This document shows positions 25,205 to 34,342 of a stretch of DNA of 64,000 bases, piece after piece. The notes below the pieces were generated by a model, which was not told where the DNA came from, ran no database searches, and saw only the letters and a program-made list of their open reading frames with translations. A program made the translations under genes and the position numbers. Location: positions 2,800,783 through 2,864,782 of the forward strand of contig JAVSMU010000001.1 of NCBI GenBank assembly GCA_032027045.1, given 5' to 3'. The stretch comes from Truepera sp. (lineage in GTDB: Bacteria; Deinococcota; Deinococci; Deinococcales; Trueperaceae). Every line of letters starts with the position of its first letter. Positions within the stretch are counted from its first letter, which is position 1.

Positions 25205-25657
25205 ATGTCGCAAGAAGAGAGAACGACGTGGGTGAGTGGCGTAGTCACGCTGTTGGCGGCGGCCTGGTACGGCTGGACCGCGTTCGGTGGGTTCGGCCGG
25301 GTCCCCGTGGACCAGATCGCGTATCAGCGGCCGCTGATCATCGCCGTGGTCGCGATGATCGTCGGCAACATCGTGGGTGCCGTCGTGCTCACGGCTGGTG
25401 CGGCGATCAGGGCCGAGGTGACCAGTAGCGGCTCGGCGAAGGCCATCGACCGCAAGGACGAGCGCGACGCTTCCATCGGGGCGCGCGGCGACCGCGCGGG
25501 GTTCTACGTGGTGTCGTCGCTGACGGTCGGCGTGCTGGCCCTGGCCATGCTGGAGGTGCCGCACTTCTGGATCGCCAACGGCGCGTTCGCGGCGCTGGTC
25601 TTGAGTGGGCTGGTGAGCGCCGTGGTCAGGCTCGTCGCGTACCGCCGGGGGTTCTAG
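25205..25657 (+). CDS. Four-helix membrane protein paired with XRE regulator
   Basis: A 150-residue protein with helices VSGVVTLLAAAWYGWTAFGG, PLIIAVVAMIVGNIVGAVVL, VVSSLTVGVLALAML and IANGAFAALVLSGLVSAVVRL. A cytoplasmic loop carries KDERDASIGARGDRAG, resembling the E-R-D/E loop of DUF2178-type proteins. Such proteins are often encoded next to a small XRE regulator, as here. GAGGAGG precedes ATG 25205. It is probably under control of the operator at 25143-25163. The physiological role is unknown. Confidence 0.7.
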   Translation: MSQEERTTWVSGVVTLLAAAWYGWTAFGGFGRVPVDQIAYQRPLIIAVVAMIVGNIVGAVVLTAGAAIRAEVTSSGSAKAIDRKDERDASIGARGDRAGFYVVSSLTVGVLALAMLEVPHFWIANGAFAALVLSGLVSAVVRLVAYRRGF

Positions 25658-30533: not shown

Positions 30534-31430
30534 ATGAGCGACGAGCGAAACGAGACCGGCGGCCTTCCGGGCGGCGTTCCAGTCGGCCCGGGCGAAAACG
30601 CCGCGTCGAGGGAAGACCTTAGCCGTATCGACGTGTACCTTGACGGCGGCACCGAGCCCATCGTCAGCTACCGGCCGCCGGTCAGCTTCGAGCTCGACTC
30701 CACGCAACTGGACGACGGAGACCACGTCCTGCGCATCGAGGCGCGCGACTCCTCCGGCACGAAAGGTGTTCGCGTCGTGCCCTTCACGGTGCGGAACGGC
30801 CCGGGGATTGCCCTACACGGCCTGACCCCGGGCGACGTCCTCGACGGGAAGGTGCAGATTCTCGTCAACGCCTACGGCGGCGCGAACGAGAAGTACTGGG
30901 AACCGTCGCGCGCCGAGACCCCGGCGCCCATCCCCACCTGGACTTGGGTGCTCGTCTTGTTCATCGTTGCCTTCGGGGTGTTCTACGGGGTGCGTCACTG
31001 GAACCCGTCTCCCGACTTCGCGTCCACGCCCACGTTCAGTTCCACCACCGCCCAGACGAGCCAGGCTCCTGGCGCAGTCGGCGGGCCCGCCGGCGCGCCC
31101 ACGGGCCAGGGCGGTGCCAAAGGGGAGGCCCTCTACTCCAACCTTTGCGCGGCCTGCCACCAGGCCGGCGGACAGGGCCTGCCGGGCGTGTTCCCGCCGT
31201 TGGCGGGTGACCCGGTCGTGACCGCCGCCGACCCTACCGAGCACATCAGTACCGTGTTGCACGGCAAACAGGGTTCGACCATCGACGGCGTCAGCTACGC
31301 CGCGGCCATGCCGGCGTTCGCGGGACAGCTGACGGACGAGGAGGTGGCCGCCGTCGTGAACCACGAGCGCACGAGTTTCGGCAACTCGGCCCCCACCGTT
31401 ACCGCCGACCAGGTAGGCGCTTTGAGATAG
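30534..31430 (+). CDS. CcoP-like cytochrome c with N-terminal Ig-like domain
   Basis: A disordered N-terminus is followed by an Ig-like beta-sandwich (~30-90: IDVYLDGGTEPIVSY, DDGDHVLRIEARDSSG, VVPFTVRNG). A CcoP-like joining segment (EKYWEPSRAETPAPIPTWTW) leads to one transmembrane helix (136-154), a flexible linker, and one class I cytochrome c with CAACH at 205-209. Normal CcoP has two hemes c and no Ig domain; here there is one. If the heme is periplasmic, a single helix would leave the Ig domain in the cytoplasm. About three quarters of the cytochrome domain is identical to the CcoO extension. Confidence 0.85.
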   Translation: MSDERNETGGLPGGVPVGPGENAASREDLSRIDVYLDGGTEPIVSYRPPVSFELDSTQLDDGDHVLRIEARDSSGTKGVRVVPFTVRNGPGIALHGLTPGDVLDGKVQILVNAYGGANEKYWEPSRAETPAPIPTWTWVLVLFIVAFGVFYGVRHWNPSPDFASTPTFSSTTAQTSQAPGAVGGPAGAPTGQGGAKGEALYSNLCAACHQAGGQGLPGVFPPLAGDPVVTAADPTEHISTVLHGKQGSTIDGVSYAAAMPAFAGQLTDEEVAAVVNHERTSFGNSAPTVTADQVGALR

Positions 31431-33000: not shown

Positions 33001-33672
33001 TCAGGACGGGCGGGCTTCGTCAAGCGAGGCCAACGCGGCGAACGCGCAGCTGCCCTCGCCGTCCGCCATGCAGGACGTGAGCCGCACCTCGGTTCCCAAT
33101 AGGAGCGAGATCAACCGTTCGTCGAAGCGGCAAACGGCGCGCGTCTCCTGGGCAACGCGGTGGTAGATGCAGTTGATTGCCTCGATGGACTCGCCGTCCG
33201 CCGCGAGGCGCGCGTGGTATCCGAGTTCGTTCATCTTCTCGATCACTGCCGCGCGCCTGGACGGTGCGTCGAGTCTCTCGAGCGCGGGCAACAGCTCGGC
33301 GGCCAGGTCGTCCGCCATGGTAGCGAGAACCGACTCGGCGGTTTCGTCCCCGAGGCGGTCCCGGAGCGCCCGGAGCATGCCCAGCGACAGCATGTCGTAG
33401 CGGCGTGGGAACGTCTCCCGGCCCCGCTCGGTCATCCCGTAGGTCCGGCTCGGCCTGCGACCGCTGGGCCTCAGGCCGATCGGGGCCACCAGCCCGTCGC
33501 GCTCCAGGGCCGTTACCTGCTGGCGCACGGCGTTGCGCGTGACGCCCAGCAGGGCCGCGAGTTCGTCGAGGGTCAGGCCCTCCGGCTTGGTGTGGAGCAG
33601 TTGCTGCAGGAGCGCCTCGCGAGTGCTAGGAGGCGGTTGCTGCGCTGCCGTAGGAACCTTTCCTTGCGTCAC
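33001..33672 (-). CDS. SufR-like iron-sulfur transcriptional regulator
   Basis: An N-terminal winged helix (~18-85; LTLDELAALLGVTRNAVRQQVTALERDGLV) is joined to a sensor domain with four C-terminal cysteines, C168, C181, C201 and C209, in the pattern of SufR-type [Fe-S] repressors. SufR controls iron-sulfur cluster assembly genes; no suf genes are in this window, so the targets are unknown. GTG 33672 has AAGGAG eight bases upstream. The palindrome at 33691-33706 lies just upstream of this site. Confidence 0.82.
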   Translation of the reverse strand: MTQGKVPTAAQQPPPSTREALLQQLLHTKPEGLTLDELAALLGVTRNAVRQQVTALERDGLVAPIGLRPSGRRPSRTYGMTERGRETFPRRYDMLSLGMLRALRDRLGDETAESVLATMADDLAAELLPALERLDAPSRRAAVIEKMNELGYHARLAADGESIEAINCIYHRVAQETRAVCRFDERLISLLLGTEVRLTSCMADGEGSCAFAALASLDEARPS

Positions 33673-33690
33673 GGACTCACTCCTTCCCGA

Positions 33691-33706
33691 TGTTTCACGT
33701 GAAACA
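33691..33706. promoter_or_regulatory. parS-like centromere site
   Basis: TGTTTCACGTGAAACA, a perfect 16-bp palindrome identical to the widespread bacterial parS consensus bound by ParB/Spo0J. It lies in the intergenic region between the SufR-like gene and the TTHB210-like gene. No parA/parB genes are in the window. Chromosomal parS sites usually cluster near the replication origin. Confidence 0.8.
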
Positions 33707-33767
33707 TTACCCCGGCGGCTGGGCCTTTCACGGAGACACGCCCGGCGCTAGGCCTGAACAATAACAT

Positions 33768-33780
33768 ATGTACCTTACAT
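33768..33780. promoter_or_regulatory. Small palindrome ATGTA-N3-TACAT
   Basis: An inverted repeat upstream of the secreted TTHB210-like gene, ahead of a TAATCT box (33798-33803). It is a possible regulator site; the bound protein is unknown. Confidence 0.35.
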
Positions 33781-33865
33781 TAGTGATTTTGGGTGCTAAT
33801 CTCGTCGAGGTGAACGAGCGCCCTGCTGAGCGTCCGTGCGACCAAGAACATCGAAGGGAGAGGTC

Positions 33866-34342
33866 ATGAATTACCACCAAGAAGTCAGCTCGAGAGGTTC
33901 GTTCGGTCGTCGCCTGGTTGGCGGCCTGGCGGTCCTCGCCCTCTTCGTCCTACCGTTCGCCGCTGCCCAGGATGCAGAACTAGCCAAGTCGCCGCCTCCG
34001 GCCCCGTACGTGAGTGTGTCGACGCTGCTTCCCCTGCCGGACTTCATCCCGGGCGTGGGCGCCCTGTTCATCGACCCGGCGAACGCACCCGTCGGCCCCT
34101 GGCTCTCGTACGGCTCGGACGGTAGCCTCGTCGAAGTCCTCTTCATGGTGCCCATCAGCGCCATGCAGACGGCGACCAACTGGTCCGACTTGGCCACGGG
34201 CGTGCTGGCCAAGACGGGCAAGACAGTCGACCACGTGGAGATCACCTACAACGGCGGGCACCCCGGCATGGCCGAACCGCACTACCACATCAGGCTCGTG
34301 CTCGTTGACGCGGCTACGGACCAGAAGCTCCTGAACCCGTAA
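33866..34342 (+). CDS. Secreted TTHB210-like (DUF5602-type) protein
   Basis: Signal peptide LVGGLAVLALFVLPFAAAQ after a 15-residue basic N-terminus; mature part ~120 residues. The C-terminal HPGMAEPHYHIRLVLVD carries the HPG-x4-PHYH pattern I associate with the TTHB210-like family from Thermus, with clustered histidines that could bind metal. ATG 33866 follows GGGAGAGG, which decides the start over the upstream frame to 33836. The function is unknown. It ends at a strong bidirectional terminator. Confidence 0.7.
   Translation: MNYHQEVSSRGSFGRRLVGGLAVLALFVLPFAAAQDAELAKSPPPAPYVSVSTLLPLPDFIPGVGALFIDPANAPVGPWLSYGSDGSLVEVLFMVPISAMQTATNWSDLATGVLAKTGKTVDHVEITYNGGHPGMAEPHYHIRLVLVDAATDQKLLNP

Follow-up and report, generated by a model that had tools for sequence, protein, structure and literature searches.

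Does the perfect palindrome in front of a SufR-like regulator gene of Truepera sp. (Trueperaceae, Deinococcota) belong to the chromosome, as a parS site to which ParB would bind, or to the regulator next to it, as the operator from which the gene would be controlled? A sequence-only reading of this DNA had taken it for parS, and its claims could be followed up in the whole genome and in the related genomes. The palindrome was taken from the window, which here means the entire stretch of 64,000 nucleotides analysed, positions 2800783–2864782 of the single 2,919,400-bp contig (2.92 Mb) that makes up the genome called G000 below.

The palindrome and its copy near the origin

The sequence TGTTTCACGTGAAACA was confirmed letter for letter at positions 33691–33706 of the window (genome 2834473–2834488, with no strand assigned), and pattern search bore out the claimed agreement with parS, all 16 of 16 positions being identical to the 16-bp consensus TGTTNCACGTGAAACA given in the available text of PMC4409726. 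The exact palindrome around it extends to 18 bp (33690–33707) and is the sole perfect palindrome of this length in the window. Perfect palindromes of 16 bp number two in the window, the other one being ATCAGCGGCCGCTGAT at 25323–25338. The site is intergenic, as had been stated, and lies in a gap of 193 bp between the SufR-like gene on the minus strand (33001–33672) and a divergent gene on the plus strand (33866–34342). The GTG start of the SufR-like gene is 18 bp away, and the open reading frame listing contains no in-frame ATG, GTG, or TTG earlier than this GTG.

A match of this quality had been called very unlikely to arise by chance, and the numbers agree. Dinucleotide shuffles gave a mean of 0.05 expected matches with up to three mismatches in the window, and a first-order Markov model trained on 463 kb of the G000 genome predicted 9.6e-5 exact copies genome-wide and 3e-6 in the 90 kb around the origin. 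Pattern search of the whole genome, the check that the sequence-only reading had proposed, found two exact copies against the roughly 1e-4 expected, and no further site at one or two mismatches from TGTTTCACGTGAAACA. Six matches with three mismatches, one at 31255–31270 in the window and five elsewhere, were set aside as near background because the reversed pattern yielded three.

The second exact copy lies in the neighbourhood of the replication genes. DnaA is encoded at 2790041–2791351, and the gap between dnaA and a dnaN-like gene contains two exact DnaA boxes and two with one mismatch to the box consensus. On the other side of dnaA follow, in this order, an mnmG-like gene, the proximal parS copy (2794292), an rsmG-like gene, a parA-like gene, and parB, where dnaN, mnmG, rsmG, and parA were named by recognition of their sequence and by gene order rather than by family search. 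The proximal copy is situated 1.6 kb before parB and 40,181 bp from the copy in the window, which in turn is about 38 kb from the parAB locus and about 45 kb from the DnaA boxes beside dnaA. GC skew, a check that the sequence-only reading had proposed, was of no help: its values in 20 sampled stretches and in the window were weak and noisy and lacked a clear switch. The origin was therefore located from dnaA, the DnaA boxes, and parAB. With both exact copies at most about 45 kb from the region of dnaA and its boxes, the window does belong to the origin-proximal part of the chromosome, as had been predicted, and instead of being evenly scattered the two copies cluster near dnaA and parB.

ParB and the layout of parS in the family

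A chromosomal ParB that could occupy such sites is encoded at 2795868–2796683 of G000 (172.9 bits against parB_part in the profile search), and the genome also encodes an SMC protein above the profile cut-off. The best match of this ParB among solved structures is the Spo0J structure 1vz0, that of T. thermophilus. With the Caulobacter residue numbering anchored on G170–R173, ten positions named as DNA-contacting or specificity residues in the available text of PMC7383237 were compared, and G000 ParB was identical to Caulobacter ParB at all ten, including R173, T179, A184, and G201. The lack of a ParB, one of the findings that the sequence-only reading had said would speak against parS, is thus not what the genome displays; it has one with parS-type specificity residues. 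The same residues bear on whether the palindrome might be a Noc-type (nucleoid occlusion) binding site and not parS, an idea that draws on the relatedness of Noc to ParB and of their palindromes described in the accessible part of PMC7383237. The Noc set Q173, K179, K184, and R201 is not present in G000 ParB, which has R, T, A, and G at these places, and just one further ParB-like gene exceeds the cut-off (1423973); its product is divergent, and its neighbours are integrase-like and methylase-like. On the ParB residues this explanation was rejected, save for the case that the ParB-like protein encoded at 1.42 Mb bound the site, and hardly any probability at all is left to it. The second ParB-like gene (G000:C1:1423907–1424980; L096 8908–9981), whose integrase-like and large methylase-like neighbours were named by recognition, is probably part of a mobile or defence island at 1.42 Mb.

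ParB was found in all 61 genomes searched, and a parS site with at most one mismatch in at least 49 of the 61. The layout was tabulated for 36 of 37 family genomes, G026 being left out as its site and parB are on different contigs; the table counts sites on the contig of parB, and G020, G027, and G036 were entered with sites of two mismatches. In this table, a parS-type site precedes parB by no more than 4 kb in 32 of 36 family members, follows it by no more than 400 bp in 23, and is present on both sides in 19. Though common in the family, the site just after parB is missing from all six genomes of the genus (G000 to G005). By synteny, extra sites of G001 and of G009, which is outside the genus, correspond to places in the origin region of G000. 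Those of G009 are on contigs that match this region at about 2.807 Mb and, for the other, about 3 kb beyond a segment matching 2.766 Mb. In G001 a doubled site at the proximal place is accompanied by a site with two mismatches in a segment syntenic with the window.

The SufR-like neighbour and the question of an operator

The gene at 33001–33672 (minus strand) encodes a winged-helix regulator with Pfam HTH_11 and HTH_20 above cut-off. The label SufR-like given to it by the sequence-only reading is fair as a statement of likeness, and goes too far if taken to mean SufR itself, as the protein scores 47.4 bits against TIGR02702, below the equivalog cut-off of 178.8. An alignment of seven relatives has four invariant C-terminal cysteines, C168, C181, C201, and C209, spaced C-X12-C-X19-C-X7-C in all seven. 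Only the first spacing agrees with the cluster motif C-X12-C-X13-C-X14-C given for SufR in the available text of PMC8593673. By its sequence, then, the protein is to be classed as SufR-like and not as a SufR equivalog. Relatives with about 35–40% identity occur in methanotrophs, Geothrix, and others (L119–L144). All that G001 retains at the syntenic place (G001:C122; L147 12981–13082) is a match of 38 residues to the end of the protein, which looks like a remnant of the regulator gene. Cytochrome c genes are found close to the regulator gene and the palindrome. The product of the divergent gene at 33866–34342 (plus strand) is short, begins with a signal-like segment, and matches no Pfam or NCBIfam family, and the coding stretch beyond the gap is also matched in G002 to G005.

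With an exact palindrome 18 bp before a regulator gene, the resemblance to parS might be coincidental and the palindrome might be the operator through which the regulator controls its own gene and the divergent one. SufR proteins do autoregulate via palindromes according to the accessible text of PMC8593673, and the orthologue in G004 has a version with one mismatch at nearly the same offset. To examine this, 59 loci that encode relatives of the regulator were compared (L117 and L118 duplicate G002 and G005). The best site within 300 bp upstream has no mismatch for the window gene, one for the G004 orthologue, and five to nine for the others. Thus 57 of 59 loci are without any site at four or fewer mismatches, and the two with at most one mismatch are the window gene and its G004 orthologue. 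Three syntenic orthologues with about 70% identity have the palindrome in degraded form, and what is conserved there is an AT-rich block farther upstream. The palindrome moreover differs from CAAC-N6-GTTG, the operator given for cyanobacterial SufR in the available text of PMC8593673, a pattern with no match in the window, and its second perfect copy at the parAB locus has no such regulator adjoining. As a conserved feature the operator was rejected on these grounds, namely two of 59 loci, decay in sister species, and no CAAC-N6-GTTG; this answers the objection that the sequence-only reading had raised against itself, and an operator function of the palindrome is extremely unlikely. Its placement before the SufR-like gene is most likely incidental.

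The AT-rich block (about 33757–33785, given on the minus strand, upstream of the regulator gene) was recognised from invariant columns in the upstream alignment and is kept in all five genus orthologues aligned (the window gene and those in L100, L101, L102, and L104). Judged from this conservation, it is a candidate for the actual promoter or operator of the two divergent genes. A scan of 33600–33900 for consensus promoters and terminators found nothing.

Fate of the site within the genus

At the syntenic place before the SufR-like gene five genomes of the genus display the site in different states. In G004 a copy with one mismatch is found (15 of 16 positions); most of the flanking columns differ between G000 and G004 while the parS positions stay. 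In G002, G003, and G005, where the surroundings are syntenic as well, the best match has five mismatches and an offset of −34, the same as for the G000 site. Only 1, 3, and 1 positions match as well in the 8,000, 15,001, and 20,000 bases compared, respectively. Because so few positions do so and because the offset is the same, the five-mismatch sites are most likely relics of parS, and with relics in three sister species the site appears to be dispensable there. A small tree built for seven genomes on DnaA, MnmG, ParA, and ParB, with G009 as the root, places G004 outside a clade of G000 and the G002/G003/G005 group, with a support of 0.94 for the split joining G000 to the group and of 1.0 for the group. 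With this tree, one ancestral parS at this place that decayed once in the G002/G003/G005 group would fit; two independent gains are also possible.

The location of the extra parS varies between the species of the genus, being in front of the SufR-like gene in G000 and G004 and elsewhere in others. G003 has the regulator gene and the origin parS on one contig, about 77 kb apart, and its proximal site stands alone at up to two mismatches. In G002 and G005 an extra site with one mismatch was found inside the coding region, in the C-terminal part, of a gene of the GH65 family. Its coordinates are L103 8434 (G005:C10:64433) and L110 8180 (G002:C172:33179). This site is absent at up to two mismatches from G003, which has the GH65 gene, and had no match in the origin-side stretches of G000 that were compared. 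In G000 the relative of the GH65 gene is encoded at 1.21 Mb, about 1.6 Mb from the origin region; therefore closeness to the origin cannot be claimed for all extra matches in the genus. Considered as a copy that might have moved, the match in the GH65 gene could be real or could have arisen by chance in the coding sequence.

The parS site in the window is very probably genuine, and would then be the more distant of two sites that make up a centromere near the origin. In its favour are the sequence and how rare it is, two copies that are both close to the origin, the ParB residues, and the SMC gene. The relics in three sister species, the GH65 match, and a GC skew that lent the origin no independent support speak against it. 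The site might also be perfect and yet unused, a leftover that ParB no longer needs and that is under weak or no selection, in line with the relics at the orthologous spot of G002, G003, and G005 and with G003 living with one site at up to two mismatches. The retention of 16 of 16 positions here and of 15 of 16 in G004, with most flanking columns differing, argues against this, and with parS-type residues in ParB binding is expected whether the site is needed or not; a mere leftover is therefore unlikely. Another possibility is that the site is a real parS with a regulatory effect, ParB loaded on it repressing or tuning the SufR-like gene. Situated 18 bp before the start codon, the site is probably in the 5' leader, and the accessible text of PMC7022226 describes local ParB effects at parS for comCDE in S. 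pneumoniae and for genes near parS in P. aeruginosa. The same source describes genes beside parS sites of B. subtilis as unchanged on loss of Spo0J. Three of the five genus orthologues stayed in place while the site before them decayed, so that such a control is not conserved. From the position, a side effect of ParB on the SufR-like gene is possible, and as an account of the site it is quite improbable. A further-reaching idea would have ParB at parS set the expression of a cysteine-rich, possibly Fe-S-sensing regulator, so that redox or respiratory control would respond to the copy number of the origin or to its state of segregation, and the sister species would have lost this link when the site decayed; it is speculative and very improbable.

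If the site is the parS that it appears to be, ParB from the parAB locus about 38 kb away would load on it and spread to nearby DNA, and together with the proximal parS (2794292) it would form a partition complex to be moved by ParA and able to load SMC. ParB binding, spreading, segregation, and SMC loading at the window site are thus expected by analogy. In the systems studied, ParB at parS spreads, ParA moves the complex, and SMC is recruited (available text of PMC7333895), the spreading involving CTP (PMC8367383 and PMC7053999, in the parts accessible). According to PMC7333895, P. aeruginosa and Caulobacter accept additional parS sites only if these lie within about 600 kb around the native locus or the origin, a zone that fits extra sites which wander and yet mostly stay near the origin.

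With the chromosomal parS of the ParABS system the site shares the full 16-bp consensus, the origin-proximal position, and a cognate ParB with parS-type residues; it differs in standing apart, as an outlier, from its partner, the parAB-linked copy, by 40 kb. Livny et al. 2007 is reportedly the reference for such sites. In T. thermophilus, of the same phylum, ParBc binds parSc specifically in vitro (available text of PMC4409726). The parSc site of strain HB27 resembles the present case in phylum, in proximity to parAB and dnaA, and in a ParB closest to 1vz0, and differs from it in being one site, inside gidB, whereas G000 has two, the distal one between a regulator and a divergent gene. D. radiodurans, again of the same phylum, has the parS-like sites segS1–3 on chromosome I, which according to the text available of PMC7671480 follow a looser consensus and lie at 3.5, 72.9, and 231.8 degrees, whereas both copies in G000 are perfect and near the origin. 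The cyanobacterial SufR operator (PMC8593673, as far as its text is available) is likewise a palindrome before a SufR-like gene, but of another sequence that is absent from the window, and the G000 palindrome is not conserved with the gene. A literature query for Truepera and parS returned no title about parS among the matches listed, the second term also matching other words.

The site is an ordinary extra parS, with nothing in its sequence that sets it apart from known chromosomal parS, and it demonstrates that calling parS by consensus works in Trueperaceae. Why the number of parS sites varies and what keeps them clustered are named as open questions in the accessible part of a review (PMC7333895), and the genus provides a small case series on this point, in which one syntenic place holds the site intact, one mismatch off, or, in three species, as a relic with five mismatches. 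That the genus lacks the site usual for the family past parB and has an extra site varying between species is mildly interesting, a result that would be useful and unsurprising to a specialist.
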